A DNA stretch of 43,990 nucleotides from a virus, in IMG/VR virus record IMGVR_UViG_3300042090_001763, positions 1 through 43,990 of that record, one strand, 5' to 3'. Under the pieces are notes generated by a model that saw nothing but the letters and a program-made list of their open reading frames with translations, did no database searches and was not told where the DNA came from. The position numbers were made by a program, and so were the translations under genes. Positions 5,146 through 19,592 of the stretch are shown here, in pieces (within the stretch, counting starts at the first letter, position 1; every line of letters starts with the position of its first letter).

Positions 5146-5155
5146 GCTGCTTTGA

Positions 5156-5212
5156 GCATCGCGCGAGCGAGGGCGAACCAGTGCGAGAGACGCGACGGCT
5201 GCGAAAGCCGGT
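5156..5212 (-). promoter_or_regulatory. Module-boundary repeat, copy T2
   Basis: This 57-bp stretch fills the gap between the stop at 5213 and the region before the start at 5145. It aligns with 5901-5957 with about ten substitutions and no gap. The best-conserved core (5183-5207, minus strand) contains CCGTCGCGTCTCTCGC and is shared with 19375-19398. A second conserved part (TTCGCCCTCGCTCGCGCGAT) lies next to the start codon in the two leftward copies only. A shared control site for late or fibre genes is the likeliest reading; a REP-like repeat is the alternative. Confidence 0.6.
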
Positions 5213-5893
5213 CTAGGGAATCGCAGCCACATACGTGTTCGAGGGCGCCGACTCGATTCCCGAGGCGTCCACGCTGCGGACCTCGTAGCTGTACACCAGG
5301 CCATCGGCCGCCGTCGTATCGATGTAGCTCGTCTCCGTCACCGGTTCCGAGTTCAGCAGAGCCCAGGTGGTGCTGCCGCTGAGCGCCCGATAGACGTGGT
5401 AGCCCGCCACCGGATCGGCCGCTGCGGCCGGCGCGTCCCAGGTCAGCTCGACATCGTAGGGGATCGGAGGAGGTTCGCCGATCGCCGAACCGTAGATCAG
5501 AATCTTCGGGCTGGTGGCGTTCGTGGCGATGGTCAGCGAAGCACCCACCAGCGTTCCGGTCACCGTGGGATCCCAGGTAACGCTGATCACCGTGCTCGCC
5601 CCCGGCTGGAGGGTGACAGGCAGGCTGTCGGAGACAGAGAGGCCCGCGCCGGAGATGGCGGCGCCGGTGACGTTCAGCGGTGCGGTGCCTGAGGATGTAA
5701 CGGCGATTTTCGAGACTTCAGCCTCGCCGAGGATGACGTTGAGGAAGGCGATGCCGGTCGCGGAGAGCTGGGTTCCCGTAGTGGATCCGGCGGCCGCAGA
5801 GAGACGCAGGGCGGGCTCGCCCCGATGACGACCCTGCGCATGAACGCCGAGCGCGGCCAGAACGAGGATGAGAGCGAAGAGCCGGATGCGCAT
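5213..5893 (-). CDS. Secreted choice-of-anchor/fibronectin type III protein (226 aa)
   Basis: The ATG at 5893 gives a strong signal peptide (MRIRLFALILVLAALGVHAQ). Residues of about 30-130 resemble the choice-of-anchor D/ASPM-type beta sandwich: LSATGIAFLNVILGE near the start, VTSSGTAPLNVTG in the middle, then VTWDPTVTG. The last 85 residues form a fibronectin type III domain (VELTWDAPAAA, GYHVYRA, YSYEVRSVDASGIES). Both folds are common in exported Acidobacteriota proteins and bind proteins or glycans. It is the first of three exported proteins downstream of the early operon and is preceded by the boundary repeat. A virion-decoration, adhesion or lysogenic-conversion role is possible; the sequence does not decide. 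Confidence 0.78.
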   Translation of the reverse strand: MRIRLFALILVLAALGVHAQGRHRGEPALRLSAAAGSTTGTQLSATGIAFLNVILGEAEVSKIAVTSSGTAPLNVTGAAISGAGLSVSDSLPVTLQPGASTVISVTWDPTVTGTLVGASLTIATNATSPKILIYGSAIGEPPPIPYDVELTWDAPAAAADPVAGYHVYRALSGSTTWALLNSEPVTETSYIDTTAADGLVYSYEVRSVDASGIESAPSNTYVAAIP

Positions 5894-5900
5894 GTGCGCA

Positions 5901-5957
5901 GCATCGCGTGAGTGAGGGCGAAGGCGGGCGAGAGGCGCGACGGATGCGGAAGGCGCG
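5901..5957 (-). promoter_or_regulatory. Module-boundary repeat, copy T1
   Basis: This occupies the gap between the stop of the excisionase-like gene (5958) and the start at 5893. Its core (5928-5952, minus strand) differs from copy T2 in three positions and contains CCGTCGCGCCTCTCGC. The flank next to the start codon is also conserved with T2. It marks the border between the early chain and the exported fibre genes, where a separate promoter would be expected if these genes are expressed late. Confidence 0.6.
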
Positions 5958-6206
5958 TCAGAACCTCTTCTCCAGTCCGTTCCGCTCGTGCAGCTTTTCC
6001 ACGTAGGCCAGCAGCGAATCGTAGCTGATCCGCCAGGGGCTGCTGGGCTTGTCGGGGCGCACCTTGTACGCCTTCAGCGTCCCGTCCTCGCACATCCGCG
6101 AGATCGTGTCATGGGAGACGTCGAGGATCTCCGCAGCGCGCGTGGCGCTCACCGTGTACCTCGGGCTCCACGGCAGCAGCAGCTGATCGGGAACGCGAAA
6201 GCTCAT
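5958..6206 (-). CDS. Excisionase/MerR-type helix-turn-helix protein (82 aa)
   Basis: The middle of the protein reads YTVSATRAAEILDVSHDTIS followed by RMCEDGTLKAYKVRP and SSPWRISYDSLLAYVEKLHE. This is the winged-helix pattern of the HTH_17/excisionase family: helix-turn-helix, a wing with GTLKAYKV, then W-R-I followed by a long helix. Such proteins bind DNA, acting in phages as excisionases or small regulators. It is the last gene of the early chain, and its start overlaps the upstream stop by four bases. No partner recombinase is present apart from the DDE transposase, so a transcriptional role is more likely than a recombination directionality role. Confidence 0.75.
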   Translation of the reverse strand: MSFRVPDQLLLPWSPRYTVSATRAAEILDVSHDTISRMCEDGTLKAYKVRPDKPSSPWRISYDSLLAYVEKLHERNGLEKRF

Positions 6207-6430
6207 TCCGGAGAAACCTCCAGATTGGGATCGATGCGCAGCCGGCGCAGGAAGTCTTCGTCGGACGGTCCCTCCAGCGGCTGCACCGTCAGGTTGACCC
6301 TGATCCCGATCGCGTCGGTCATAACGCCGAGCTGATCGAGCGCGGCCAGCGCCGCATGCACGCCGGCCGATTCGAGGATGGCGTCCACGGCCGCATCGCG
6401 CAGGGCTTCGATGGCTTGCTGCCGCGTCAT
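6203..6430 (-). CDS. Small unknown early protein (75 aa)
   Basis: The ATG at 6430 overlaps the upstream stop as ATGA. The N-terminal half is helical and Ala-rich (RQQAIEALRDAAVDAILESA); the second half contains IGIRVNLTVQPLEGPSDEDF. No signal peptide, membrane segment or metal motif is seen. I do not recognise the family. Four-base overlaps on both sides put it inside the early chain, so it is probably translated by coupling. Confidence 0.6.
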   Translation of the reverse strand: MTRQQAIEALRDAAVDAILESAGVHAALAALDQLGVMTDAIGIRVNLTVQPLEGPSDEDFLRRLRIDPNLEVSPE

Positions 6431-6930
6431 GCCGGAGTCTCCTCCCGCAGGCCGCGGGCTTTCGCCATGTTCTTCAGAGCCCAGTAGACGCGGTTGGCGT
6501 CGCCGAGCGTGCGGATGCTCGCGCGATGGCCGAGCGGCGAACTGGGCGAGCGCAGCCAGCCGTCGAGCTGGGCCTGCGACCAGCCCAGGCGGTCGAGAGC
6601 GTCCTGAATGCGCGCGAGATCCGAAGCGCCGACCAGCGTGACCGAGCCCCGATCGCCGCGGCGGCCTTCGGTGCCGGCGCGTTCGGCGCGATGGCGGTCC
6701 GGGCGGTTCTGCGCCGGGTGCTGCACGCCGAGCTGCTTCTGCAGGGTGTCGATGAGGCCGCGCGCTTCCGAACGCGTGAGGTCGCGGAAGCTCGCGAGCG
6801 GGCGCCGCACCAGCTCCGCAGCCCAGGCGATGCGCGCCGCGCGATCCTTCGGCTGCTGCGTGTGCGCGCAGAGCTGGCCGTAGAGCGTCTGGAGACGCGC
6901 CATCTGCCCGCCATTGATCGGTGCGCTCAC
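6427..6930 (-). CDS. Phage protein with GemA-like N-terminal helical domain (167 aa)
   Basis: The first 70 residues (MARLQTLYGQLC, ARIAWAAELVRRPLASFRDL, then TRSEARGLIDTLQKQLG) recall the helical domain of Mu gp16/GemA-like proteins (DUF1018), where a tail of the form L-T-x-x-E-A-x-x-L-I-D-x-L is typical. A charged linker follows, then a second helical domain from about residue 100 (SDLARIQDALDRLGWSQAQL to VYWALKNMAKARG). In Mu, GemA affects host gene expression and DNA topology; here the link is by pattern only. The four-base overlaps with both neighbours are intact. Confidence 0.55.
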   Translation of the reverse strand: MSAPINGGQMARLQTLYGQLCAHTQQPKDRAARIAWAAELVRRPLASFRDLTRSEARGLIDTLQKQLGVQHPAQNRPDRHRAERAGTEGRRGDRGSVTLVGASDLARIQDALDRLGWSQAQLDGWLRSPSSPLGHRASIRTLGDANRVYWALKNMAKARGLREETPA

Positions 6931-7202
6931 TCGCCCTCCACAAGCAACGGCATCTCATCCGGGAGGGCCACCTGGAGATGGCTCGGCGTGAGCGGGTGTC
7001 CGAAGGTGAGCAGCGTGAGAACGACATCGGCGCCGGCGGCAATCGCGGCGCGCTCTTCATCGGTCAAACGCCAGCGCGAAAGAACGGGGCGCGCCGGCGT
7101 GTCGAGGTAGACCGCGGGCAGCGGATTGTATTGCTCCTGGTCCTTGCCGTACACGACCTCGATCGGCTCGGACCCTGGCATCACTGGGCTAACAGGCTCC
7201 AT
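6927..7202 (-). CDS. Conserved phage hypothetical protein (91 aa)
   Basis: The protein carries YGKDQEQYNPLPAVYLD, then VLSRWRLTDEERAAIAAGAD and VVLTLLTFGHPLTP. This combination is familiar from small hypothetical proteins in phage early regions and bacterial genomes; no function is established to my knowledge. There is no signal peptide or membrane segment. The start lies three bases after the stop of the 68-aa zinc-ribbon gene and the stop overlaps the next start. Confidence 0.65.
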   Translation of the reverse strand: MEPVSPVMPGSEPIEVVYGKDQEQYNPLPAVYLDTPARPVLSRWRLTDEERAAIAAGADVVLTLLTFGHPLTPSHLQVALPDEMPLLVEGE

Positions 7203-7689
7203 AGCTCACCCCGGCTTCGCTTTGTTCTTTGAGCCCTGCGGCCGGCCGCGGCGATCCAGCCGGTGTCCGCAGTGCGGGCACGTCTTTGGCGGTCCCTGCA
7301 CCGCCCGCCGGTCCTTCAGCCGGCACGGGTCGCTGCAGAAGCGATCCCGCGGATGCCGCACCGCGTTCGTGCAGCCCTGCCTCTGACACTGCCGTGCGTA
7401 TCCCTGATCCACCGTTTTCTCCCTGATGCAGTGCGGCCCCGAGAATGCCGTAGCCGGCGATGTCTCTATAGGGCGATTCGCCCAGCGCGTCGCGGTCGGT
7501 GGCGATGCGCTGCAGCTTGTCGAAGATGCGCACCAGCAGCAGCGCGTCACCGTACTGCTCCGGCGCCAGGCCTTCGGGATAGAGCAGGCGCAGGAACGCG
7601 CCCGCTTTGGCGAAGCTGCTGCCGTAGGCGGCGTTTTTGTGCTCGACCAGCTCGCCGATCTCGCGCGCGATGGTAAGGAAGCGGCTCAC
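7189..7689 (-). CDS. DUF1599-like nucleotide-metabolism protein with odd C-terminal extension (166 aa)
   Basis: Residues 1-90 resemble the phage DUF1599/MazG-like group: EIGELVEHKNAAYGSSFAKA, VRIFDKLQRIATDRDAL, ESPYRDIAGYGILGA. Proteins of this type have an all-alpha fold related to nucleotide pyrophosphohydrolases and accompany thymidylate or nucleotide genes. The last 75 residues are Gly/Ala/Pro-rich and lie entirely over the 68-aa zinc-ribbon gene in another frame. They look like read-through of a lost stop rather than a real domain. The start overlaps the upstream stop as ATGA. Activity cannot be claimed. Confidence 0.6.
   Translation of the reverse strand: MSRFLTIAREIGELVEHKNAAYGSSFAKAGAFLRLLYPEGLAPEQYGDALLLVRIFDKLQRIATDRDALGESPYRDIAGYGILGAALHQGENGGSGIRTAVSEAGLHERGAASAGSLLQRPVPAEGPAGGAGTAKDVPALRTPAGSPRPAAGLKEQSEAGVSYGAC
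7206..7412 (-). CDS. Small zinc-ribbon protein (68 aa)
   Basis: It starts at the GTG at 7412, preceded by GGGAG at good spacing. It has six to seven metal-ligand candidates: CQRQGC, then DRFCSDPC, then TCPHCGHRLDRRGRPQG. The first four cysteines resemble a treble-clef/zinc-knuckle; the last CPHCG is a zinc-ribbon knuckle followed by a basic tail (GSKNKAKPG) that could contact nucleic acid. It is wholly overlapped by the 3' part of the DUF1599-like ORF in another frame. The motif density makes this frame the coding one. Confidence 0.7.
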   Translation of the reverse strand: MDQGYARQCQRQGCTNAVRHPRDRFCSDPCRLKDRRAVQGPPKTCPHCGHRLDRRGRPQGSKNKAKPG

Positions 7690-7940
7690 GCGGTTTCCTC
7701 CTCATCGCCGCCGAACCAGTCGAATTGCACCGGGCGCCGGCGCTCCAGCTCCGCCTGCAGGCCGCGCAGATCGGCGAGCGCAACCGGATCGCGCCGCAGT
7801 TTCTTCATGGCCTCGCGATAGGCGCTGCGCATCTGCGGCGGCGTTCCTCCCAGCACGCGCGCGATCTCGACAAAACTCATCGCGGCCAGCGGATCGTCTC
7901 CGTCCGCGCGAATGCAGGCGCGCTGCGATGGCTTCTTCAC
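7686..7940 (-). CDS. Sigma-70 region 4-like HTH protein (84 aa)
   Basis: Residues of about 20-55 read AAMSFVEIARVLGGTPPQMR followed by SAYREAMKKLRRD. This is the pattern of sigma region 4: Ser-x-x-E-I-A, Leu-Gly, and a recognition helix ending in Ala-x-x-K-L-R-R. There is no region 2, so it is not a complete sigma factor. Phages use such short region-4-like proteins as promoter-recognition or anti-sigma/activator factors. Its position near the end of the early chain, before late transcription must begin, makes it the best candidate for a late activator. The C-terminal tail is acidic (DWFGGDEEETA). Confidence 0.65.
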   Translation of the reverse strand: MKKPSQRACIRADGDDPLAAMSFVEIARVLGGTPPQMRSAYREAMKKLRRDPVALADLRGLQAELERRRPVQFDWFGGDEEETA

Positions 7941-8395
7941 AGGCCCTCCTGACGCAGCAGCGTTCGTTCGAGGTCGCTCAGGGCTTTGCCCTGGCTCCTG
8001 CGCTCGACCGCGCGCCGCACGAAATGCTCGCGCCGCTTCCGCGCTGTTTCCTCGTCATCGGCGGCCACCAGCTTTGCGGGCGCGGGCTGCGGCTTCGGCA
8101 GCCGATAGCGATCGAGCGGCGCATGACTGTAGCGCAGCACGTCGGCGAACCAGCGATGGATGCGCTCGCCGGGCGCGTGATCGTCGCTGAGCAGCCGGTG
8201 ATCGAGGCAACGCTGGACGATCTCCACGGCCACGCGGGGATTGGCGCGCAGGAACGTTCCGACGCACCCGGCCTCGGCCGCGCCCCACGGCAGATCCGGC
8301 GTCTCCGGATTCTCCTTCTGCCAGTAGAGCTGCAGCAGCGCCTTCACCGCGGCGTGACGCGGATCCGGCGGCAGCCGATCGCGGCGCGGGCTCAT
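7937..8395 (-). CDS. Unknown early protein, basic C-terminal half (152 aa)
   Basis: The N-terminal half contains HAAVKALLQLYWQKENPETP, then LRANPRVAVEIVQRCLDHRL and GERIHRWFADVLRYSHAPLD, ending RYRLPKP. This helical pattern is familiar from phage and host hypothetical proteins with a role near replication genes, but none is characterised to my knowledge. The C-terminal half is charged (ARKRREHFVRRAVERRSQGK). It has four-base overlaps on both sides. No enzymatic motif is visible. Confidence 0.6.
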   Translation of the reverse strand: MSPRRDRLPPDPRHAAVKALLQLYWQKENPETPDLPWGAAEAGCVGTFLRANPRVAVEIVQRCLDHRLLSDDHAPGERIHRWFADVLRYSHAPLDRYRLPKPQPAPAKLVAADDEETARKRREHFVRRAVERRSQGKALSDLERTLLRQEGL

Positions 8396-9114
8396 GCAGT
8401 TTCTCCGAGAATGATCTGGACGGCTGGTTCAACGAGCGCCGCCCCGAGCCGCCGCTTCAGGCGGTCGCGGCATTCGGCGCACACAGCCATGCGGATGCCC
8501 GAGGCGCGCACTTCATAGACCACGCACTCCTGATGAACGCAGGTCTGCAGAGGCTGCTGCTGCTTCGCGATGCTGTGATTGCCAGCGGGATCGTCGCGAA
8601 TGACAGTGGCCGGGAAAATAGCGCCACCCTGCGTGATGAGGGCTGTGGTCTCTACCGGGAAGCCGCACGACATCACCGCATCGCAGAAGCGCAGAATGCG
8701 CGGACCGCTCATGCCGCGGGCGCCGTCGAAAGCGCCGTGATAGTCGGGTCCGGCGAGGCGCGTGGCGGAATGGAAGCTCACCTGGCCGATGGTCTGGCTA
8801 CTCGACGGACAGGGCAGATCGATATAGAGCACCCACTCGAAGTTTGGCGTGCTCTCATCGCGGCCCCAGCCCCAGCGGATGTTGAGGCCGAACTGCGGCA
8901 GCAGCCGCACGATCTCGCTCAGCGACCAGTTCTTCACATCGTAAGCGCCGCGACGGAAGCGGCCGCGGCGGTAGCGCTTCGCCGCATCGCTGCGCTTTTG
9001 CGCGCGGAACAGCGCGACCGCCAGCTCTCCGTAGCAGCCCAAGACGGTCAGCGCGGCGTAGTACGCCTTCGTCACACCGCCGTCGTTCTGGCTGAAGACT
9101 TCGGCTGCCGTCAC
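8392..9114 (-). CDS. Conserved phage protein with C-terminal zinc-finger-like cysteines (240 aa)
   Basis: The central part has the conserved phrases WVLYIDLPCP, GQVSFHSATRLAGPDYHGAF, and MSGPRILRFCDAV, which recur in a widespread but uncharacterised phage/plasmid family. The N-terminus (EVFSQNDGGVTKAYYAAL) and the basic stretch RYRRGRFRRGAYDVK are well formed. The last 60 residues carry CVHQECVV and VCAECRDRLKRRL, a likely zinc site. The ATGA overlap with the gene before it fixes the start at 9114. Confidence 0.65.
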   Translation of the reverse strand: MTAAEVFSQNDGGVTKAYYAALTVLGCYGELAVALFRAQKRSDAAKRYRRGRFRRGAYDVKNWSLSEIVRLLPQFGLNIRWGWGRDESTPNFEWVLYIDLPCPSSSQTIGQVSFHSATRLAGPDYHGAFDGARGMSGPRILRFCDAVMSCGFPVETTALITQGGAIFPATVIRDDPAGNHSIAKQQQPLQTCVHQECVVYEVRASGIRMAVCAECRDRLKRRLGAALVEPAVQIILGETA

Positions 9115-9530
9115 GACGGCATCCTCCCCTTGCAGATCCTGCCGCCGAAATGGCGGATGGCGCGATTGATGCCACGCATCGCACCATCCAGCTCAGCGCA
9201 CACGCGACACCGGTCCTCATGCTGAACGCGCGGATCAGTGGCAATCGCAAAAGCGTTGAGGTGATCGTTCTTATTCTCGAATGCCTTGTTCCAGAGGGCG
9301 TACAGCTCCGCGCGCACCTCGGCCGCGTTCCAGAGCAGGTGCTTCACCGCAGCCCCTGCGCGCGTTCCTGGATTCGGTTCGAGCCCATCTCGCTGATCGC
9401 CTGCGTGAACTGCGCGCGCGTCGGCCCCTTCGGGCTGCGCAGGAATGAACTCCGCGCCCTCGCCGTCATCGAAGCCGTCGATCTGGCTGCAGAGATCGGC
9501 GTACACCGCGTCATAGAGTAGTCGTCTCAT
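9111..9530 (-). CDS. Unknown early protein (139 aa)
   Basis: The ATG at 9530 overlaps the upstream stop as ATGA, so the longer open frame (to 9608) is not needed. The N-terminus RRLLYDAVYADLCSQIDGF is helical; a low-complexity linker follows, then a helical C-terminus (HLLWNAAEVRAELYALWNKA, DGAMRGINRAIRHFGGRICK). Three cysteines lie at DRCRVCAE and ICKG. I do not recognise the family. Confidence 0.6.
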   Translation of the reverse strand: MRRLLYDAVYADLCSQIDGFDDGEGAEFIPAQPEGADARAVHAGDQRDGLEPNPGTRAGAAVKHLLWNAAEVRAELYALWNKAFENKNDHLNAFAIATDPRVQHEDRCRVCAELDGAMRGINRAIRHFGGRICKGRMPS

Positions 9531-9732
9531 TTGCGTTTCAACCTCCGAACCTTTCCGGCACTGGCGCTGCGCGGCTCGCCGAGGTGCCATCCGTGACAGA
9601 AGCGGCACTCGTAAATCTGCAGGAGACCCCGCCGCCTGGGTGCTTCTGCAGCGTTCCCGTGAGCGCTCGCCGCGCTGCGCCCAGCGATACGTGCCGCACC
9701 TTTGTCAGGCAGGAGCGCTCCTCGCTGGTCAT
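9527..9732 (-). pseudogene. Zinc-ribbon protein gene broken by an apparent one-base frameshift
   Basis: One frame starts MTSEERSCLTKVRHVSLGAA at 9732 and continues plausibly to LQKHPGG; the other frame then supplies GLLQIYECRFCHGWHLG to the stop at 9527. Together they make the common phage layout of a basic N-terminus with Ala/Arg pairs followed by YxCxxCxGWHL. The switch falls in a run of four Gs (C-run at 9627-9630 on the plus strand); one extra G would join the halves into a protein of about 68 residues. An intact frame from a GTG at 9739 also exists but lacks the usual N-terminus. Sequencing error, mutation or frameshifting are all possible. Confidence 0.6.
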
Positions 9733-9735
9733 AAC

Positions 9736-10029
9736 TCACCCGAGCCTCGCCTTCGCGCCGGCGATTCGATCGAGGTCGGCGCGGATGGATGCGACCTCGG
9801 GCCGCCCTTCAATTTGCGCAATGTGGAGCTGCGCGTCGAGCGTGGCGATGTCGTAAGGCTGCAGCGGGCCGCCCCGGTCCCAGGCGCGCTGGGTCTCCAG
9901 CACAAGGCTGCGCAGGCGCATGGGCAGCCGATCCCAGTGATCGCGGCACATCAGCCGATGGAGCGGGATCGTTTCGTCGCAGCCCACGGCAAAGCACTTT
10001 TTGAACGACAGCTCGCTGTGCGGGATCAC
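9736..10029 (-). CDS. Small Cys/His-containing early protein (97 aa)
   Basis: The GTG at 10029 overlaps the upstream stop as GTGA. The N-terminus has FKKCFAVGCDETIPLHRLMC followed by RDHWDRLP; the pattern C-x4-C, C, H resembles a small zinc finger seen in phage proteins (a C-x-x-x-x-C, then MCxxHW). The rest is helical (RLRSLVLETQRAWDRG, ADLDRIAGAKARLG). Structural zinc and nucleic-acid or protein binding are possible; the function is unknown. Confidence 0.62.
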   Translation of the reverse strand: MIPHSELSFKKCFAVGCDETIPLHRLMCRDHWDRLPMRLRSLVLETQRAWDRGGPLQPYDIATLDAQLHIAQIEGRPEVASIRADLDRIAGAKARLG

Positions 10030-10478
10030 TTCGCCACCTCCAGAGAAAGCTGGCCGAGCAGCTCGCGCGTGCGCGCCGGGCCGGAGACGCAGCGGTGGGC
10101 CTGCACCTGGGCGCGGATCTGGTCGAGGAAATTGGCGTCGAAGACTTCCTGATCTTCGGCCGAGAGGATCAGGAAATAGCCGCCGTCGACCGAATCCTTG
10201 GAGCTGCCGATGGGCAGGTGCCAGCTGATGCGCAGCGCGCGCACGATGCCTTTGATCTCGCGGTCGCTCAGCTGCAGCCGGCTGCGCATCTCGCGGATGG
10301 TGACGGCATTCTTCGCGCCGCGGCGGAAGCGGATCGCGGAGAGCACCGCCTGCTCGTCGCTGCTCAGGCACTGCTCGAACGGACCGCCCGGCTGGCCATG
10401 GATCAGGCGCACGATCTCCTGATCGAGCGCTTCGACGCGCTCGGTCTGCGACTCCGGGAAGAGAGACTGCGGCGTCAT
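10026..10478 (-). CDS. Winged-helix early protein (150 aa)
   Basis: After a helical N-terminus comes SDEQAVLSAIRFRRGAKNAV, then TIREMRSRLQLSDREIKGIV with RALRISWHLPIGSSKD and GGYFLILSAEDQEVFDANF. This reads as a helix-turn-helix followed by a wing that ends in G-G-Y-F, a layout found in phage replication or regulatory proteins with a DprA-like winged helix. The ATGA overlap with the upstream gene fixes the start at 10478. DNA binding is inferred; the target is not known. Confidence 0.65.
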   Translation of the reverse strand: MTPQSLFPESQTERVEALDQEIVRLIHGQPGGPFEQCLSSDEQAVLSAIRFRRGAKNAVTIREMRSRLQLSDREIKGIVRALRISWHLPIGSSKDSVDGGYFLILSAEDQEVFDANFLDQIRAQVQAHRCVSGPARTRELLGQLSLEVAK

Positions 10479-10735
10479 CGCGACTCTCCAAACAGCGGCG
10501 CCTGCGCCAGCGGCGCGTTCTTGTGACGCGGGCAGTGATCGCGATCCGGGCCGACGCTGGTCGCGCACTGGTCGCACATCGCGGCATCGCAGGTTTTGCC
10601 GCGCGGGCCGACCGGGAAATCGCAGAGCTTCGTCGCCCACTGCGTGTTGCAGAAGGAGCATCTCTTTGGCTGTCGGCCGCGCGTACAGATAAACGCGGTG
10701 AAGTTGCCGTCTGGATCGCGATAGAGCGGCGTCAT
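10475..10735 (-). CDS. Cys-rich putative zinc-binding protein (86 aa)
   Basis: The protein has nine cysteines: CTRG, RCSFC, KLCDFPVG, KTCDAAMCDQCA and DHCPRH. The series CxxC, C, C-x4-C-x2-C, C-x2-H suggests two zinc sites. The phrases KLCDFPVGPRGKTCD and MCDQCATSVGPDRDHC recur in uncharacterised phage proteins. It is likely a nucleic-acid- or protein-binding module. Start at 10735 by ATGA overlap. Confidence 0.68.
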   Translation of the reverse strand: MTPLYRDPDGNFTAFICTRGRQPKRCSFCNTQWATKLCDFPVGPRGKTCDAAMCDQCATSVGPDRDHCPRHKNAPLAQAPLFGESR

Positions 10736-10956
10736 TCGGTGGCTCCGGGAATCTCGGGGACGACGGCGGGATGAGGAACCCAACATCTGTGCGGCAGGCC
10801 CGTGTCGCAACCGTTGGGGCCGCAATATCCGAGGTAGCCTCCGCAGACATCGCAGACGAAGGCGCCGTCAACGAGCTGGTGATGGCTGAGCACTCCCTGG
10901 CCGCAATTGCAGCAGCGCGGGAGTCGCGGGGGCTTCACTGCGCGCCAGTCGGTCAT
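10732..10956 (-). CDS. Small zinc-ribbon protein (74 aa)
   Basis: The ATG at 10956 overlaps the upstream stop; the open frame further upstream is not needed. The motif PRCCNCGQGVLSHHQLVDG followed by FVCDVCGGYLGYCG and GCDTGLPHRCW has two CxxC knuckles spaced like a rubredoxin-type zinc ribbon plus extra cysteines. Function unknown. It is one of a series of such small proteins in this chain. Confidence 0.66.
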   Translation of the reverse strand: MTDWRAVKPPRLPRCCNCGQGVLSHHQLVDGAFVCDVCGGYLGYCGPNGCDTGLPHRCWVPHPAVVPEIPGATE

Positions 10957-11240
10957 TCGGTCGCTCCCAGATGCGCGTTCGGATCGGGGCGAGGGACCGG
11001 TCCGGAGTAGCCGTCCGGCCCGGCGGGCGGATGCGGGCGCCAGTCCGGACAATCGGCCTCGACTTCCCCCATCAGCTCGTGGCACAGCTCGAGGCCGTTG
11101 TAGTAGCCAACGCGGCCGCGCACGATCGCGTCCACGTCGTCGGCGGCAATGCCGTCGCGCAGCACGTCGATGTGCTCGGTCGCGACCAGCAGCGCGCGCC
11201 GGATGAGATCGAGTTTGCTGGCGACCAGAGCGCGATCCAT
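10953..11240 (-). CDS. Unknown early protein (95 aa)
   Basis: The start overlaps the upstream stop as TAATG. The N-terminal two thirds are helical (SKLDLIRRALLVATEHIDVL, RVGYYNGLELCHELMGEVEA); the C-terminal third is Pro/Gly-rich (PPAGPDGYSGPVPRPDPN). No recognised domain, membrane segment or signal is seen. Confidence 0.58.
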   Translation of the reverse strand: MDRALVASKLDLIRRALLVATEHIDVLRDGIAADDVDAIVRGRVGYYNGLELCHELMGEVEADCPDWRPHPPAGPDGYSGPVPRPDPNAHLGATE

Positions 11241-13116: not shown

Positions 13117-13361
13117 ACGGACACCTCTTCGCCGGTATGCCGTTTCACGAATGCGACCAGCGCCGCCGCGACAGCCAGCGCCTGATCGACATCGAGGTGC
13201 GCGGCGCCGGCGAAATTCACACCCGGCTCAGAGATAAAGAGCCACAGCGAAGCAGCTTCCTCCGTGCTGGAATCCCGCAGCGTCAGGCGCTCGCCGTGGA
13301 TGCCCATCAGTTCCGGGCCTTCCTCGGCGTCGCGCACGCGTGTGAAGCGGCGATGCGTCAT
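13113..13361 (-). CDS. Unknown early protein (82 aa)
   Basis: The ATG at 13361 overlaps the stop of the MuB-like gene. The sequence has RLTLRDSSTEEAASLWLFIS, then AAHLDVDQALAVAAALVAFV, and looks like a small beta-then-alpha domain with no metal or membrane motif. I do not recognise it. The position right after A and B resembles where Mu carries small accessory genes. Confidence 0.58.
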   Translation of the reverse strand: MTHRRFTRVRDAEEGPELMGIHGERLTLRDSSTEEAASLWLFISEPGVNFAGAAHLDVDQALAVAAALVAFVKRHTGEEVSV

Positions 13362-14401
13362 GCGGGGACCTCGATTCTTTCCTCGGCCGGTTCCGGCTGC
13401 GCGGCGGCCAGCGCCTCGCGTGCTTCGCGCAGCGCCGCCATCAGCCGGCCGATGGAGATGTAGCGCTGCTTCTGGCGGCGCACCGCAACTTCCACGGTGG
13501 CCAGCTCGATCTGCTGCTGGACCAGCGAGCTGTCGACGCCAGCACAGACCGGCTCCAGCTCGCTGCGCACAATGCCCGCCGCTTCCTCGCGCGTGACCGC
13601 CGGCAGCGTGACCTTGTCGGTGACGCGGCGTTCGAGCTGCTCCAGCGTGCCCGCAAACTTCGAGAAAATCTGATCCAGCTCATGGCTGCCGGTGAAGATC
13701 AGCGAGAACCCGCCCTGGTCGAACAGCTCGCGCACCGTCTCCAGACAATCGATCGAGAGGTGCTGCGCCTCGTCGAATACCAGCGCCACCCTCTGTCCGC
13801 GAAACTCCCAGAGGATGTTCTGCAGGATGCGGTCGATTTCGCCGGCAATCGAAGTTCCGCAGGCCTGCGCCACGCGGCGCAGCAGATCGCGGGGCCGGAT
13901 GCCGGCGCGGCAGTAGATGTGGAAGAGGTGGCGCGCTCGCTCGGCGTGTGCCGCCGTCCGGTTGTGCTCGGCGATCAGCCCGCGCGTGACGTCGGTTTTG
14001 CCCGAGCCCGGCGGCGCGTAGACCATGAAGATCTGCGGGCGATCCAGAACCCGCGCGAAGATCTGCCGCAGACAGCGCACGTTGCCGATCTCGTAGAGCT
14101 TGCCGGTGAAGCTGCCGGTGGGCTGGATCGGATAGCGCTCCATGAATTCGAGCAGCGCCGCGCAGATCGGCGAGTCGTCGCCGCCGACGTTCTCGTAGCG
14201 GTCGGTGAGGAACTTCTGCAGCGTGGTGTAGCCGTAGCCGATGCGATGGGCAAAATCGGCGGTGGCCATCCCCGTCCGGTTCAGATACGCGCGCGCCAGC
14301 TCCTGCACGCGGTGGCGGCGGTCCGCCGTGCGTTCCAGCTGCGCGATTTTGCGCAGGTGCTCGGGGCTGGCGTGACGATTGCGGGTGCCGGCGACTCTCA
14401 T
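13358..14401 (-). CDS. MuB-like AAA+ transposition target/activator protein (347 aa)
   Basis: The start at 14401 overlaps the transposase stop as ATGA; the frame is open upstream but only as a shadow. Residues of about 40-90 form a small HTH (MATADFAHRIGYGYTTLQKF). The ATPase follows: Walker A APPGSGKTDVTR (Lys about 135), Walker B VALVFDEAQHL (Asp 210), then sensor-like LIFTGSHELDQIF. MuB-family proteins bind target DNA as ATP filaments, activate the transposase and give target immunity. The related transposon proteins IstB and TnsC share the fold. The pairing with the adjacent DDE transposase makes the assignment firm. Confidence 0.88.
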   Translation of the reverse strand: MRVAGTRNRHASPEHLRKIAQLERTADRRHRVQELARAYLNRTGMATADFAHRIGYGYTTLQKFLTDRYENVGGDDSPICAALLEFMERYPIQPTGSFTGKLYEIGNVRCLRQIFARVLDRPQIFMVYAPPGSGKTDVTRGLIAEHNRTAAHAERARHLFHIYCRAGIRPRDLLRRVAQACGTSIAGEIDRILQNILWEFRGQRVALVFDEAQHLSIDCLETVRELFDQGGFSLIFTGSHELDQIFSKFAGTLEQLERRVTDKVTLPAVTREEAAGIVRSELEPVCAGVDSSLVQQQIELATVEVAVRRQKQRYISIGRLMAALREAREALAAAQPEPAEERIEVPA

Positions 14402-16473
14402 TTGCGGAGGCCCTCCAGAAGAACGCGTGCGGCCTGCGCGGGCGTCGGGGGAGCTGCGCCCGCTGCAGGGTGGGCGGGGGAAGGAGATTGCGGCCGATGC
14501 GTGAGCACCGGCGCGATGGAGTGCGGAGCTTTGGCGGTACGGACCAGCGCCTCGATCGGCGAGTCGGCGCCGGCGGAGCGCGCGGCTGCGGCGATCCCGT
14601 CGACCACGCGCCGCGTCTCTTTTTCCAGATGCCGGCGGTCCGCCATCGAGTCGGCGATGCGCTGCTGCACGGTCGCGTCGGCCGGGTTGAAGCCGATCAT
14701 CTCCTTCAGCCGCGCGCCGCACAGGAAATGCCCGTCCAGATCGAGCACCGCAATCTCGGCGGGATCGTTCGGGTCCCACGCGGCCATCGCTTCGCGCTCC
14801 GTCATCTCGTGGAGCGCGTCGCGTCCGAAGGCGTCGGCATAGGTGTAGCGGCGGCGGTTGAGCCGGATCTCGCATTCGCGCACGCGGCATGTCGTGCGCT
14901 CCGGCAGCAGCAGCGCGAGCATTTCCGGGCCTTCCGGGAGGCGGCCTGCGACGCGCTCCGCAAAGACTTCCTCCGGCGTGCGGTTGTCCATCCCTTCGCC
15001 GGTGTGCGGCGTCTGGTGATACTCCTCGATCCACGCCATGCAGGCGGCGATCACCTGGCTCGCCGAAGGATGGGTCGATGCTTCGAGACGGCCGTGCTTC
15101 AGCGCCTTGCGGTGGACGGCCATCGCTGTGCTGGTCGCGTCCGGGCGCAGATGCGGAGCGCCGCCGGTGTAGTGCTCCCAGAAGAGCTTGTCGAAGCGGT
15201 CATGCACGGTGCCGAAGAACCGCTCGACGTGCTTGGACTGCGGATGGCGCACGATGCAGTGCGTGACCGTCACGCCGAGCCGGGCCAGCAGCCCGAGCTT
15301 CTCGATCTGCGCCATCTCGGTGTCGGCCCAGCCCCGGATCGCGGCCGGATCGCTGAGGTACGCGGGGATGGCTCCCTTCGTGACCTTGAGATAATCCTTG
15401 CCGTTGTCGCAGTAGAAGTGCTGGCAGATGCCCCACTGCGCGATAGCGCGGCGCAGGGCGGTCGCGATCGAGCGCGAGCTTTCGTGCGGCGCCCAGCTCG
15501 CGCCCACCACGAACCGCGACCGGAAGTCGAGCAGGCAGGTAAAGCGCAGGCGCAGGGGCGCGCCCCACGGCATCTCCGGGAAGCAGTCGTTCCACGCTTC
15601 CACGTCGTGCAGCATGTGATCGCTCACCCAGATCTCGTTGGGCTGCACGTCGCGGTAGTGGCGGGTGAGGTAAGGGGCGAAAGTCTCGCGATAGCGGCGC
15701 TGCCCTTCCCGCGCGTAAGTTTCCAGATAGGGCGGCAGCGACTTCAGCCAGCGGCGGACGGTCTGGTAATGGGGCAGATCGTGCTCGGCGAGGCCCAGAC
15801 GCTCGCGCTCGCGCAGGATGGCTTCGAAGCAGGCGCGGCAGTTCTGCTGGTACTTGAGATAGAAGGCGGCGGCGAGCAGCGCGGCCTCGCGGTGATCGTC
15901 GAACCACCGGCTCTGGTCGCGGTCGCTGCGTTTGCGGTCGGCCAGCGCCGGGAATCCGCCGGCGCGGTAGCGGGCCAGCCAGCTGTTCAGCGTGCGCACG
16001 CCGTTGCCGCTCTCCTCCGCCTGACGAGCGATCAGCTGCGACTTCGACGTGATGCCGAGCTGCTGCCAGCGGACGCGCTCCTGGGCGTAGTGGAGGATCG
16101 GTTCGAGGATCGCGTAGCGCTTTTCGGCCTGGCGCTGATCGTCCGGATCGGGCAGCACGATGCGCTCGGAAGGTGGCTGGCTGGCGAAGAGCGGCGCCTG
16201 CATCCCCAGTTGCGGCGCGCTCGCCTCGACAGAGGACGATTCGCCAGCCAGCTTGTCGGCGGCGTCGGCGGGAATCGACGCGGCCAGATATTCGCGAAGA
16301 CGGCGGCCATTCGGGCCGCCCTGCGCCGCAACGCGGGAGACCAGCTCGCGGCGGCGCCGGAACAGCGTGCTGCGCGACCAGCCGGTCCGCGCCAGCACAT
16401 CCTCGGCGGTGAGCCAGCCCTCGTGCGCGGGCACAAGGTAGAGCATCGGGGCAGCTGCCGTCTGCGTGCTCAT
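14398..16473 (-). CDS. MuA-like DDE transposase (691 aa)
   Basis: The N-terminus has a Mu-type winged HTH (LTAEDVLARTGWSRSTLFRR). The catalytic core carries D285 (IWVSDHML), D356 (FYCDNGKDY) and E417 (KHVERFFGT); the spacings of 71 and 61 residues resemble MuA's. After the core comes a beta-barrel-like region (CRVRECEIRLNRRRYTYADA). The length is close to MuA's 663 residues. The enzyme nicks both phage ends and joins them to target DNA, both to integrate and to replicate. Its sites should be the repeats at 644 and 43842-43887. It overlaps the upstream gene and the MuB-like gene by four bases each. Confidence 0.93.
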   Translation of the reverse strand: MSTQTAAAPMLYLVPAHEGWLTAEDVLARTGWSRSTLFRRRRELVSRVAAQGGPNGRRLREYLAASIPADAADKLAGESSSVEASAPQLGMQAPLFASQPPSERIVLPDPDDQRQAEKRYAILEPILHYAQERVRWQQLGITSKSQLIARQAEESGNGVRTLNSWLARYRAGGFPALADRKRSDRDQSRWFDDHREAALLAAAFYLKYQQNCRACFEAILRERERLGLAEHDLPHYQTVRRWLKSLPPYLETYAREGQRRYRETFAPYLTRHYRDVQPNEIWVSDHMLHDVEAWNDCFPEMPWGAPLRLRFTCLLDFRSRFVVGASWAPHESSRSIATALRRAIAQWGICQHFYCDNGKDYLKVTKGAIPAYLSDPAAIRGWADTEMAQIEKLGLLARLGVTVTHCIVRHPQSKHVERFFGTVHDRFDKLFWEHYTGGAPHLRPDATSTAMAVHRKALKHGRLEASTHPSASQVIAACMAWIEEYHQTPHTGEGMDNRTPEEVFAERVAGRLPEGPEMLALLLPERTTCRVRECEIRLNRRRYTYADAFGRDALHEMTEREAMAAWDPNDPAEIAVLDLDGHFLCGARLKEMIGFNPADATVQQRIADSMADRRHLEKETRRVVDGIAAAARSAGADSPIEALVRTAKAPHSIAPVLTHRPQSPSPAHPAAGAAPPTPAQAARVLLEGLRK

Positions 16474-16880
16474 CGGCTGGCCTCGGTGTCTCTGAAGATC
16501 AGCCCGATATTGGCCGTCAACTCATCGCGGAGGGCCAGGCGCCTTGGACCATCTGCGAGCTTGCGCGCATAAAAGTAGACGCTGCGTGCAGCGCGCAGAG
16601 CCACTCGCGTCCGCAGATCGCTGGATCCGCATCGCGTCGCATTGAGAATGTCGTCGAACGGGCAGCCCCAAACTTCCGCGAGCAGCGTGTCGTTGACGTT
16701 GAGTCCGAGCTTCATTCCGCGCAGACGGCGGCCGTCGCTGGTGACCTGCGGGTCATCGGCCGGGTCAAAAACCGGCTGATCCTTCGACTGCATCTGTTCG
16801 GCGATGCGGTCAGAGAAGAGGACCGCGATGGCAGCGCAGGCGATGTCGAGAGCCATTCCGAAGCGGTCAGAGGTTTTCAC
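16470..16880 (-). CDS. Unknown early protein upstream of the transposase (136 aa)
   Basis: The GTG at 16880 overlaps the upstream stop as GTGA, giving VKTSDRFGMALDIACAAIAV. The centre reads GMKLGLNVNDTLLAEVWGCP followed by FDDILNATRCGSSDLRTRVA. It is mostly helical with no signal or membrane span long enough to count. Its place between a regulator and the transposase is shared with other Mu-like phages. Function not recognised. Confidence 0.6.
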   Translation of the reverse strand: MKTSDRFGMALDIACAAIAVLFSDRIAEQMQSKDQPVFDPADDPQVTSDGRRLRGMKLGLNVNDTLLAEVWGCPFDDILNATRCGSSDLRTRVALRAARSVYFYARKLADGPRRLALRDELTANIGLIFRDTEASR

Positions 16881-17359
16881 AGGTCCACCCCTCCGAGCCG
16901 CTTCTCGATCCGTTCGGCCTGCTCGTCCGCGCGTTTGCGCACCAGATATTGGCGGCCCAGCTCCATGAGGTCCCTTTCTTCTGCTCCGATCACAAACAGA
17001 CCGGCCTTGAGGACGCGACAGGTCAAGAGGGAGTTGTCGGAGACGGCAGCGCAAAAGGCGCGATCCCAGGCGGAGGGGAACCGGTTGGGCTGCATCACCT
17101 CGGAGGTGTAGTTGTTCAGCATTTTCGCCGTCACGCGCACGCCGAGCATGATCGTCATCCCATCCGCGATCTGCTCACGGCTCAGGGAGCAGGACTTGAT
17201 GGCTGCGGAGATCGTGTCCCGCACGAGCTGATCGTCGTTGAATGAACCCGGCTCCTGGCCGAAGGGCAGCTCATTTTGTTTGGGAAAACGCTGTTGCAGA
17301 TTACTTATTGGCGAGGCGGATGCTGGCCCGCTAGATTGACCGTGCCATGGTTTTTTCAC
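16877..17359 (-). CDS. Conserved early phage protein of the transposase operon (160 aa)
   Basis: The GTG at 17359 overlaps the upstream stop (GTGA). The core SREQIADGMTIMLGVRVTAK, with MLNNYTSEVMQPNRFPSAWD, RAFCAAVSDNSLL and LKAGLFVIGAEERDLMELG, matches a family common just before the transposase in Mu-like phages, where a regulatory or DNA-binding role is supposed. SREQIADGM to KMLNNYTS has HTH-like spacing. The C-terminus is a charged helix (KRADEQAERIEKRLGG). Translation from an internal start is possible, since the first 35 residues look unstructured. Confidence 0.68.
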   Translation of the reverse strand: MKKPWHGQSSGPASASPISNLQQRFPKQNELPFGQEPGSFNDDQLVRDTISAAIKSCSLSREQIADGMTIMLGVRVTAKMLNNYTSEVMQPNRFPSAWDRAFCAAVSDNSLLTCRVLKAGLFVIGAEERDLMELGRQYLVRKRADEQAERIEKRLGGVDL

Positions 17360-17571
17360 GCAGCGCGCTCCGCATTCGCCAAACGCACCTGAAATTTGGC
17401 CACCTCGCGCTCGACACGGGCGTACTCCCGTTCGAGGGCGACTTCAACGCGCCTAGACCGCCTGCGTCCGTTGGCCACCATGCAAACGTGGGATCGACTC
17501 AACCCCATCTGCCGCGCCACTCGGCTCTGGAGGTTCCGGCAAAGCTTCGTCCGATAGACGGCGGGATTCAT
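17356..17571 (-). CDS. Small HTH protein, first gene of the early operon (71 aa)
   Basis: The ATG at 17571 is 33 bases after the predicted early transcription start. The centre, LQSRVARQMGLSRSHVCMVA followed by NGRRRSRRVEVALEREYARV, is a Cro/Ner-like helix-turn-helix plus a charged helix. In Mu the first early gene, ner, encodes a small HTH repressor of the early and repressor promoters, so a Ner-like role fits the position. The start codon overlaps a TATAAT box (17571-17576) read rightward. No good Shine-Dalgarno is seen. It lies opposite the longest possible frame of the repressor gene. Confidence 0.7.
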   Translation of the reverse strand: MNPAVYRTKLCRNLQSRVARQMGLSRSHVCMVANGRRRSRRVEVALEREYARVEREVAKFQVRLANAERAA

Positions 17572-18411
17572 ATAATCTCGGAGAGGAACCGCGTTCCTCA
17601 CGAAGAAGCAAAAGTAAAGGACGCTTACATTTCTGTCAAGCAAAATGTAGGCACGCTTTCCCGCCGTGAGCGGCTGCCCCTTATTTCCTTAAAAATCAGA
17701 GAGCTGCTTGACGCCCGAAAAATCCGGCAGGCGGATCTCGCGGACATTTGCGCCGTCAGTCGGGTGCAGGTGTCACGGTGGATCCATGAGTACGATCTCC
17801 CCAGTGCGTCTGCGCTGCTCGCGATCTCAGAGATCGTGTCGCATGAAGAACGCCAGTGGTGGCGAGATCAGGCCGCGATCCAGGCGGGCACGATGAAGGG
17901 GAAGCAGGTTGCATCTGCAGGTAACTGGGAGGCGAACACTTCAGCGTTATTGCCTGTCGCTGAGTCGATTCGTACGATCCACTTCATCACCAATTCCAAT
18001 AACTCAGGAGCAGATGTGGAAGAGTGTCTGGATCTGCCTCGTCAGTGGTTTCTAAGAGACCACGGGGAATTTCGTGCGTTGAGAGTGCAGGGCCGTGCCA
18101 TTTGCGACGCGATCGAAGGAGAAGCGATAGCCGTAATCGACGTGAGCCACCGGGACCCAAAGAGTCTGGTGGATTGCGTGGTTGTAGCTCGTGGCGTGGA
18201 AGGTCCGGTCGTCAACTGGCTTCGAGAAGATCAGGGCCATTTCATGCTGCAGCCGCTTAGATCGGGACCGTTGAAATTCGTAACCTTCGAAGATGGCGAC
18301 GGCAGCATCATCGGGCGGGTAGTGAAGTGGATCGGAGAGGCCCCGTGCCCGCGGCTCCCGACCAACGCGCAGGTGGCGCGGGACCTGAAAAAGAAGGCCA
18401 GAAAACACTGA
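17488..18411 (+). CDS. HTH/S24-like phage repressor lacking the cleavage residues
   Basis: An HTH (LISLKIRELLDARKIRQADL to VSRVQVSRWIHEYDLPSASA) precedes a C-terminal LexA/CI-like fold (FRALRVQGRAICDAIEGE to VVNWLREDQGHFML). In self-cleaving S24 proteins the first motif is G-D-S-M and a Lys follows in the later strand; here these positions are R-A-I and Asn, so self-cleavage looks impossible. It should hold the prophage silent by binding dyads at the early promoter. The start is unresolved. An ATG (17347) and this GTG (17488) both overlap the opposing HTH gene and lie upstream of the predicted promoter; an ATT at 17629 with AAAGGA seven bases before it would give 260 residues. Confidence 0.75.
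   Translation: MGSTQPHLPRHSALEVPAKLRPIDGGIHIISERNRVPHEEAKVKDAYISVKQNVGTLSRRERLPLISLKIRELLDARKIRQADLADICAVSRVQVSRWIHEYDLPSASALLAISEIVSHEERQWWRDQAAIQAGTMKGKQVASAGNWEANTSALLPVAESIRTIHFITNSNNSGADVEECLDLPRQWFLRDHGEFRALRVQGRAICDAIEGEAIAVIDVSHRDPKSLVDCVVVARGVEGPVVNWLREDQGHFMLQPLRSGPLKFVTFEDGDGSIIGRVVKWIGEAPCPRLPTNAQVARDLKKKARKH
17571..17576 (+). promoter_or_regulatory. Candidate -10 box of the rightward (repressor) promoter
   Basis: A perfect TATAAT read on the plus strand. The -35 region is weak (TTCGTC at 17546-17551, spacing 19). Transcription would start near 17583, on the 17-bp dyad, and run against the early promoter, so the two promoters face each other. Confidence 0.45.
17583..17599. promoter_or_regulatory. 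Operator-like dyad GAGGAACCGCGTTCCTC
   Basis: Seven-base arms GAGGAAC and GTTCCTC around a 3-base centre. It lies between the two facing promoters, just downstream of the early transcription start and at the predicted start of the repressor transcript. It fits a binding site for the Ner-like or repressor protein. Confidence 0.5.
17611..17639 (-). promoter_or_regulatory. Early promoter (leftward), TTGACA-17-TACTTT
   Basis: On the minus strand the -35 box TTGACA (17639-17634) is perfect. The spacer is 17 bases and the -10 box is TACTTT (17616-17611). It should drive the HTH gene and the whole transposition operon using the host housekeeping sigma factor. The -35 lies inside the TACATTT/AAATGTA dyad, so a protein bound there would block it. 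Confidence 0.65.
17626..17649. promoter_or_regulatory. Operator-like inverted repeat TACATTT-N10-AAATGTA
   Basis: Seven-base perfect arms at 17626-17632 and 17643-17649, 17 bp centre to centre, flanking the -35 box of the early promoter. This is the expected place for the lysogenic repressor to bind. Confidence 0.5.
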
Positions 18412-18436
18412 ACTGAAAACGGAGGGAAATACGACC

Positions 18437-18655
18437 ATGACACGCGAGGCGCTTCTGGGCGCAATCGACAGCGAACTCGACCGGCTGCAGGCGGCGCGAG
18501 CGATTCTTATCCACCAGCTACCCCACCGCGGCACGTTCCGCGCGAAGCGCGTTCTCAGCGCGGACGCCCGCAAGCGCATCAGCGACGCGCAAAAACGCCG
18601 CTGGGCGAAACAGCGCTCGATGGAGTCGCGAACCAAACTACCCGGTTCGCGTTGA
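18437..18655 (+). CDS. Small basic helical protein (72 aa)
   Basis: GGAGGG stands ten bases before the ATG. The protein has an N-terminal helix (LLGAIDSELDRLQAARAIL) and a basic second half, RVLSADARKRISDAQKRRWA followed by KQRS. Proteins of this layout are common in Acidobacteriota and their phages; the S-A-D-A-R-x-R-I-x-x-A-Q-x-x-R-W motif suggests nucleic-acid binding. It probably shares the repressor's transcript and may be expressed in the lysogen. Function unknown. Confidence 0.7.
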   Translation: MTREALLGAIDSELDRLQAARAILIHQLPHRGTFRAKRVLSADARKRISDAQKRRWAKQRSMESRTKLPGSR

Positions 18656-18678
18656 GGCAGGCTAACAGGCCGCCTTTT
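18654..18678 (+). terminator. Weak terminator-like hairpin after the repressor operon
   Basis: GGCAGG and CCGCC can pair with one bulged base around a short loop, followed by TTTTG. It ends the repressor and small basic gene unit before the lipoprotein. The stem is short, so confidence is low. Confidence 0.3.
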
Positions 18679-18680
18679 GT

Positions 18681-18715
18681 GAAAATACAGATTTTCTACA
18701 GATTCCCCGGATCTG
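18681..18715 (+). promoter_or_regulatory. AT-rich control region upstream of the lipoprotein
   Basis: It holds the dyad GAAAAT-acag-ATTTTC (18681-18696), the direct repeat TACAGATT at 18686 and 18697 (11 bp apart, one helical turn), and a second dyad CAGAT-N7-ATCTG (18699-18715). It is the most AT-rich stretch of the phage outside the switch and the right end. A promoter for the lipoprotein with a regulator site is likely, though no consensus -35/-10 pair stands out. Confidence 0.45.
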
Positions 18716-18742
18716 CGGATTCCATTTTTAGAAGGGGTCCGA

Positions 18743-19363
18743 ATGAAAGGAATGAAGGCGTTTTGCTCTGTGATCGCACTGGCCTCCCTCGGGATCGCCG
18801 GGGGATGTCGAACGGGCTCGCCGGCCGCCGAGGCACAGAAGGGCACCCCTGTTTTGAGGCAGATGCTGAGCCGCACAGACAGAGTGATCGTGAAGAACTT
18901 CTACACCCCGATGCCATTGGCAGAGGAAGCCCAGGGGGGCCTGACTCCAGGCTTCGCGAAGATCGGCGGCGTGTGGGTCTATCCTGCGGGCGACCGCACC
19001 CACGGGGAACGAGGTGGTTCGATTGAACTCCGATCCAGCGGCTACTACAGCGATGGGACTATCCCGCATGGGTTCGAGCACGCGATTGCCTATCTCGACC
19101 TGGGGGAGATGCAGGATCTCGATACGTCTCTCACCTACTTCGCCGGCACGCGGAGCGTCTGGAATTTGAATTCCAGCGCGAAGGAAGTCGAGGCTGACTT
19201 CGCGACCAAAGACGGCCTGAGTGTTTCGGCCTTTACTGTGGAGCACAAGCCGGTCGTTTTCCTGAGCGACGGCTCAGCGCAAGTGGAGATCCCATTCGAC
19301 AGAATCGGGGAGATCCAGAGCGCCGTCCGCAACGCGATCAAAGACGCCCAGTCCGAACAGTAA
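18743..19363 (+). CDS. Predicted lipoprotein, possible lysogenic cargo (206 aa)
   Basis: The N-terminus MKGMKAFCSVIALASLGIAG followed by GCRTG is a lipoprotein signal with a lipobox ending in G-G-C, about residue 22. The mature part is soluble and beta-rich (LTPGFAKIGGVWVYPAGDRT, EHAIAYLDLGEMQDLDTSL, VVFLSDGSAQVEIPFDRI). I recognise no family. The gene stands alone between the repressor unit and lysis with its own AT-rich upstream region, the typical place of a moron expressed in the lysogen. Superinfection exclusion or an envelope role are the first hypotheses. Confidence 0.72.
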   Translation: MKGMKAFCSVIALASLGIAGGCRTGSPAAEAQKGTPVLRQMLSRTDRVIVKNFYTPMPLAEEAQGGLTPGFAKIGGVWVYPAGDRTHGERGGSIELRSSGYYSDGTIPHGFEHAIAYLDLGEMQDLDTSLTYFAGTRSVWNLNSSAKEVEADFATKDGLSVSAFTVEHKPVVFLSDGSAQVEIPFDRIGEIQSAVRNAIKDAQSEQ

Positions 19364-19592
19364 GCTGCTTCCCACTTCGCATCCGTCGCGTCTCTCGCGG
19401 TCCCCGCAGAGCGCAGCGAAGCTGCGCCCGATACTCCCGCTCAGACCTGAACGGTCATGGCACGCGCATCTGCTTTTCATTGAGGAAAGGAGGTCGCGGA
19501 GACGCCAGAGCGAGGCATAAGCCGGGGACCGGGTGATCGTTGTCTGTCATCTGCTCCCCGCGGCTTCTTCCGTTCCGAGTCGCGGGAGTGCG
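19364..19592. other. Gap before the lysis genes, holding boundary repeat T3
   Basis: About 230 bases with no convincing gene. It begins with the boundary repeat core and later contains a strong Shine-Dalgarno-like AGGAAAGGAGGTC (19484-19496) without a long frame after it. It is a probable start region of the late transcript. Confidence 0.5.
19375..19398 (+). promoter_or_regulatory. Module-boundary repeat, copy T3
   Basis: This reads, in the direction of the late genes, the same core as T1 and T2 in the direction of theirs: CATCCGTCGCGTCTCTCGC with CTTCG before it. It starts 12 bases after the lipoprotein stop. Only the core is shared; the second conserved part of T1 and T2 is absent. Confidence 0.6.

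Follow-up and report, generated by a model that had tools for sequence, protein, structure and literature searches.

Paired upstream elements at predicted late promoters of a Mu-like transposable phage and their candidate winged helix-turn-helix reader

BldC, a MerR-like regulator of Streptomyces (PDB 6AMA, 6AMK), is a small stand-alone winged helix-turn-helix (wHTH) protein. Each BldC protomer binds one 9-bp direct repeat, head to tail, and its sites comprise a variable number of such repeats upstream of promoters (PMC5859096). Here we describe an element that occurs three times in a 43,990-bp IMG/VR record (IMGVR_UViG_3300042090_001763) that, on its gene content, is a Mu-like transposable phage; we refer to this whole stretch of DNA as the window. 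Its probable reader is a small DNA-binding protein of the phage, with molecules arranged head to tail along 9-bp repeats. The candidate is an 82-amino-acid (82-aa) protein that, like BldC, is a small stand-alone wHTH. The sites in the window are built like those of BldC, and we infer that it is the wHTH that reads them. Unlike BldC, the 82-aa protein is phage-encoded, is linked to BldC by structure and not by sequence, and has a proposed role in late-gene expression; the units in the window are GC-rich, whereas those of BldC follow AATTnnnnC.

Phage regulators provide closer parallels in setting or in function. Xis/Cox/Apl-type proteins, including 186 Apl and RdfS, form head-to-tail oligomers or bind direct-repeat sites and have dual roles in transcription. 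They serve site-specific recombination, whereas the window phage uses MuA/MuB and its sites are promoter-bound. With the genes for Mor/C of Mu, the wHTH gene may share a place that closes the early operon, behind a neighbour that in the window matches GemA only weakly. In Mu, the activator site lies upstream of the −10 element, where it replaces or adjoins a weak −35, and one activator serves lysis and other late promoters (PMC4390567, PMC4461284). The predicted site position in the window is similar, and we propose a common activator there as well. However, Mor recognizes two inverted 5-bp repeats centred at −43.5, whereas the window has direct repeats from −66 to −40, and the Mor/C domain is unrelated to the wHTH of the window. 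AlpA of Pseudomonas is likewise a small phage-type HTH regulator of lysis genes, but its element lies between −10 and −35 and it acts by antitermination (PMC9371919), whereas the element in the window is predicted at −66 to −40. We found no report of promoters such as those described below in open-licence papers.

Three copies in one phage and paired sites in its relatives

At up to three mismatches, CATCCGTCGCGTCTCTCGC occurs at exactly three places in the window: 5183-5201 and 5928-5946 on the minus strand (one mismatch each) and 19380-19398 on the plus strand (no mismatches). Shuffled sequence yielded a mean of 0.07 matches, and three were reached in none of 100 shuffles. The initial annotation had placed this element at three module boundaries, just after stop codons and facing the exported, fibre and lysis/late genes, and the counts and coordinates bear this out. 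Every copy lies 3 to 15 nt past a stop codon and is oriented toward the next gene. For copy A this gene encodes an exported ASH (choice-of-anchor)/Fn3 protein (5213..5893, minus strand; Pfam ASH, 1.5e-7; ATG at 5893). For copy B it encodes a 629-aa collagen-repeat tail fibre with a signal-peptide-like N terminus (3256..5145, minus strand; ATG at 5145), and copy C faces the endolysin operon (ATG at 19593).

Each copy consists of three 9-bp units with a consensus of about nTCGCnnCY. These are TCCGCATCC, GTCGCGCCT and CTCGCCCGC in copy A (5924..5950, minus strand; −57 to −31 from ATG 5893), TTCGCAGCC, GTCGCGTCT and CTCGCACTG in copy B (5179..5205, minus strand), and TTCGCATCC, GTCGCGTCT and CTCGCGGTC in copy C (19377..19403, plus strand; predicted −66 to −40 of the late promoter). 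Over 56 bp (5900-5955 and 5155-5210), in line with the 57 bp first reported, the similarity between copies A and B is 82%; it takes in all but a little of the spacer that separates the stop codon from the next ATG.

The exact sequence is, on the searches made here, private to the window phage. In 84,980 genomes, with that of the host itself not available, the exact 19-mer has one match (a metagenome-assembled genome of Myxococcales), which equals chance expectation. The 16-mer core has 15 single matches in IMG/VR, in unrelated settings, none of which extends. Relatives found through MuA (53-58% identity) and terminase (64-69% identity) contain no copy of the element of the window, and neither megablast of the structural region against phage records nor blastn of the spacers against plasmids returned anything useful. 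Simple conservation of the element between phages was therefore rejected, as relatives lack the sequence and keep only its positions and pairing.

Most relatives carry an element of their own, different in sequence, at the same two places: before a fibre-type gene and before the lysin operon. We scored the best ungapped match between the fibre and lysin upstream regions of 13 phages for which both regions are known. The mean score was 12.3 within phages and 7.1 between phages, and a mean as high as that within phages did not arise in any of 20,000 random pairings; when other windows of each genome served as the background, 10 of the 13 pairs had p ≤ 0.017. In most cases the match falls about −72 to −40 relative to the fibre ATG, and equally far from the start predicted for the lysin transcript. 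In L057, the spacers before the fibre and before the lysin have 31 bp in common, with two mismatches (AATGTTTCCGCGCGGAAGTGTGTTTCCGCGC). These results support the view that the leftward fibre promoters and the rightward late promoter have an upstream site in common, represented by the element, and this reading generalizes to relatives. The search of related phages suggested by the initial annotation thus failed for the sequence itself and succeeded for position and within-phage pairing, and its suggestion of a common late activator gains support from the 10 of 13 related phages with paired sites.

The copies could instead be host-type dispersed repeats of the repetitive extragenic palindromic (REP) kind, or promoter DNA duplicated by chance, with no common function. 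All copies do follow stop codons, and A and B are plainly duplicates. However, the single chance-level genome match and the lack of any extending IMG/VR match do not fit a dispersed repeat, and other phages show such a pairing with sequences of their own. We consider this explanation extremely improbable.

Repeat period and the candidate reader

The 82-aa protein is encoded just before copy A (5958..6206, minus strand) and matches Pfam HTH_17 (2.8e-9), phrog_2907 (2.3e-9) and the TIGR01764 ‘excisionase’ family (7.4e-7); Pfam gives HTH_17 only, with no Mor-type HTH domain found. An HTH_17 protein is present in 70 of 78 loci, and the remaining 8 loci are truncated. The similarity of sites between phages tracks that of their HTH_17 proteins (Mantel rho 0.21, p 0.003), whereas the neighbouring GemA-like protein, used as a control, gives a rho of 0.07 (p 0.13). 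An AlphaFold2 model of the 82-aa protein (pLDDT 85) has as its best matches, by probability and target TM-score, Pukovnik Xis (4J2N) and BldC (6AMA/6AMK), the latter with a TM-score of 0.75-0.84 by target and 15% identity; a P2 DNA-binding protein (4LHF) is also among the fold matches.

When the spacers were compared with themselves at every lag between 4 and 21, lags 9 and 18 stood out (z 3.3 and 5.4). We split the phages by the number of HTH_17 genes that follow the GemA-like gene; this label is taken from proteins, and the period is measured on DNA. Upstream of the lysin, the 10 phages with one gene, the window included, have z 7.3 at lag 9 and z 3.9 at lag 18. In the 12 phages with two different HTH_17 paralogues, the values are −0.4 and 4.4. 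For lag 9, permutation of the labels gives p 0.0002 at lysin promoters and p 0.0005 at fibre promoters (5 versus 18 phages); the same permutation shows no difference between one-gene and two-gene phages at lag 18. The BldC-type binding mode predicts such a pattern, with one protein on 9-bp units and two alternating proteins on 18-bp units. We know of no counterpart in BldC to paralogue pairs with an 18-bp period.

Many relatives (L145, L151, L170, L176 and others) have two tandem HTH_17 paralogues after the GemA-like gene, with the motifs LLLPF/ILPF and RHRDEDLLPFPLSDT. The two paralogues appear to be fused in one frame in L192, and L136 and L144 have three HTH_17 matches.

We are evenly divided on a wider proposal, in which this Mu-like family would run its late genes by a BldC/Xis-like filament. 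One protein would read 9-bp repeats and two alternating paralogues, as a hetero-filament, 18-bp repeats; the element would then be a private, fast-changing address common to the lysis promoters and the leaderless fibre promoters.

Predicted promoters and the proposed late switch

Upstream of the exported gene, promoter A is laid out as GATGCT-GCGCAC-ATG, with a predicted −10 (GATGCT) at 5900..5905 on the minus strand, −12 to −7 from the ATG, and a leaderless start predicted at 5893. Promoter B is laid out as GATGCT-CAAAGCAGC-ATG; its predicted −10, also GATGCT, lies at 5155..5160 on the minus strand, 9 nt before ATG 5145, with the same spacing to the repeats as in A. In 10 of 12 phages of the discovery set and in 12 of 16 that were held out, the exported gene has an nAnnnT hexamer, resembling a −10, at a distance of exactly 6 nt from its ATG; other offsets yield 0-3. 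Because this distance is fixed, the transcript of the first exported gene of the fibre unit probably starts at its ATG, that is, leaderless.

The predicted late-promoter −10, GATACTCC, lies at 19430..19437 on the plus strand, with a start predicted near 19443, and belongs to a family consensus of TAnnCT. We aligned the lysin upstream regions of 30 phages on this hexamer, which was picked by eye. In the subgroup to which the window belongs, the −10 is preceded by a unit like ATTGCATCT, which begins exactly 54 nt ahead of it in L086, L087, L090, L093, L097, L104, L108 and L117 (8/8) and 63 nt ahead of it in L095; the intervening sequence differs between phages. Relative to copy A, copy C is one 9-bp unit, give or take one base, farther from its predicted start. 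None of the three promoters has a recognizable −35. The initial annotation expected starts just downstream of the copies. A start downstream of each copy is retained, at a corrected distance: the predicted starts lie about 40 bp beyond the repeats, and the one for copy A coincides with the ATG.

Abutting the late −10 is a GC-rich dyad, GCGCAGC-GAA-GCTGCGC (19411..19427, plus strand). The window and several relatives of its subgroup have this dyad in the form GCGCRGC-NNN-GCYGCGC; it could be a site for a second regulator or part of the promoter.

The copies, their geometry, their pairing within phages, their periodicity and the link between period and wHTH gene number are, we think it likely, best explained as a whole if A, B and C are upstream activating sites of late promoters, with 9-bp arrays that are read by the 82-aa wHTH protein. 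Binding, activation, timing and start sites, as we infer them from the sequences, would be as follows. The arrays of direct repeats would end about 30 to 40 bp before the transcript start, upstream of a −10 of the TAnnCT type. As early transcription reaches the last leftward early gene, the wHTH protein would build up and coat the repeats at A, B and C head to tail, and the bound molecules would recruit or activate host RNA polymerase at promoters without a good −35. The rightward lysis/structural operon and the leftward exported and fibre genes would then switch on together, the latter two being transcribed from their own ATG or from 3 nt before it and so nearly leaderless. The presence of both A and B would reflect the insertion of an extra exported gene before the fibre gene, with its own copy of the promoter.

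Several observations weigh against this reading. Three of the 13 phages show no site common to fibre and lysin, and the register of the units in the window is off by one base (55 nt, against 54 in relatives). Across 21 held-out lysin regions, lag 18 is confirmed (z 6.3) and lag 9 has weaker support (z 2.9), for which the differing number of HTH_17 genes is a likely reason; held-out fibre regions confirm the period weakly (lag 18, z 2.6) and the 9-bp period not at all, probably because most phages of that set have two wHTH genes. The common ancestry of the relatives weakens the p values, and the split between one and two genes may have arisen just once in evolution. The same sequences had in part suggested the repeat statistics, and the division by gene number was conceived after both tables had been seen. 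Finally, the Foldseek matches have weak E-values, between 0.01 and 0.03, and profile A3 searched against the PDB returned no BldC chain at E ≤ 10, the best wHTH being 4J2N at 0.071. As no sequence homology to BldC was found, we do not file the 82-aa protein as a BldC member.

The initial annotation nominated a different activator, the 84-aa protein with resemblance to sigma region 4 (7686..7940, minus strand), which as an alternative sigma factor would read the element as a late activator site. This protein is encoded in the early operon and has homologues in G004 and L044, and the C at position 5 of the −10 consensus (TAnnCT) could hint at a special sigma factor. However, its profile matches in only 11 of 78 loci and misses G001, G002, L068 and L057, all phages with paired sites and the same promoter layout; it has no Pfam or NCBIfam match. 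The private element is also at −66 to −40 and not at −35, and it varies between phages whereas the −10 does not. We therefore consider this nomination very unlikely, and the wHTH appears to be the better candidate.

The wHTH might bind the repeats in another capacity, to repress or to antiterminate in the manner of AlpA or Q, and not as a recruiting activator. BldC can repress, from −50 to −80 at whiI, and 186 Apl, a phage wHTH protein, regulates promoters from direct repeats; a conserved structured leader RNA follows the lysin promoter. The lack of a visible −35 at these promoters suits activation instead, the AlpA element sits closer to the start than the element of the window, as noted above, and exported genes that are predicted to start at their ATG leave no leader on which antitermination could act. 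This alternative seems unlikely to us.

The ‘excisionase’ annotation of the wHTH by PHROG and TIGR01764, and the direct repeats that wHTH excisionases bind (PMC11963761), raise the further question of whether the copies are recombination or excision sites, A and B being inverted relative to C. That would sit badly with a phage that transposes with MuA/MuB and with sites found at fixed distances from −10 elements rather than at the ends of the phage. Pfam scans of approximately 30 proteins of the window, a subset of its open reading frames, revealed no tyrosine or serine integrase. A recombination role is highly improbable.

Genome setting and implications

The assignment of the window to the Mu-like transposable phages follows from its MuA-type transposase (14398-16473, leftward; phrog_310, 1e-87), a MuB-type ATPase on the leftward strand, a repressor (17347-18411) and a rightward unit that is headed by the endolysin, a glucosaminidase and the first recognized gene of the late unit (19593-20099, plus strand), and contains the terminase (23325-24821, plus strand). 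The leftward early genes end at the HTH_17 gene (5958-6206), and the exported and fibre genes then follow. A GemA-like early protein is encoded at 6427..6930 (minus strand); its Pfam GemA match is weak (E 0.043, below the cut-off), and it is conserved in 59 loci. In relatives it is the upstream neighbour of the wHTH gene, which lies close behind it, in the place that mor has in Mu.

In three phages, G001-G003, the fibre gene comes immediately after the same HTH_17 gene (75-77% identity), with no counterpart of the ASH/Fn3 gene in between. The ASH/Fn3 gene of the window would therefore be an insertion, A and B its flanking promoter regions, and the 629-aa fibre gene the first of the ancestral fibre unit. 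Inserted with a duplicated promoter, the ASH/Fn3 gene (5213-5893) looks like late-expressed surface cargo.

Between the late promoter and the endolysin lies a conserved structured leader RNA (19440..19582, plus strand), separate from the repeat element, with homologues in approximately 30 phages (for example, L086, L106, L133 and L088). It comprises a first hairpin, a second stem that encloses a GAAAGGAG loop, the motif GCCAGAGC, which is invariant, and a long third hairpin, with compensatory changes at 6 of 11 predicted pairs among 15 sequences. It matches no Rfam family and is possibly a new phage RNA.

At the edges of the record, the left flank (1-481) codes for part of a membrane glycosyltransferase, cellulose-synthase-like, with plasmid matches at 40-53% identity, and is probably host DNA. 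The phage termini are likely to be near 642 (TGTGCAAGTTAAATTGCACA) and 43889 (AATTTGCGCA). Four copies of AATCCAAGTCTCACC in two orientations, at up to three mismatches (0.46 expected), occupy 672-894 near the left phage end and are candidate binding sites for the transposase.

By analogy, the proposed job of the wHTH parallels that of Mu C/Mor, from a similar genomic place, and its structural relatives appear to be BldC and the phage Xis/Cox/Apl proteins. For a group of uncultured transposable phages, the arrangement described here would amount to a promoter code, and it would account for the joint switch-on of lysis, structural and fibre genes on opposite strands. Proteins that are annotated as ‘excisionase’ become candidate activators of late genes. 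Should paralogue number and repeat period prove to be linked, these phages would provide a natural series for how head-to-tail wHTH proteins choose their DNA and for the co-evolution of protein and site. The leaderless fibre genes, if true, would be an unusual way of expressing tail fibres.

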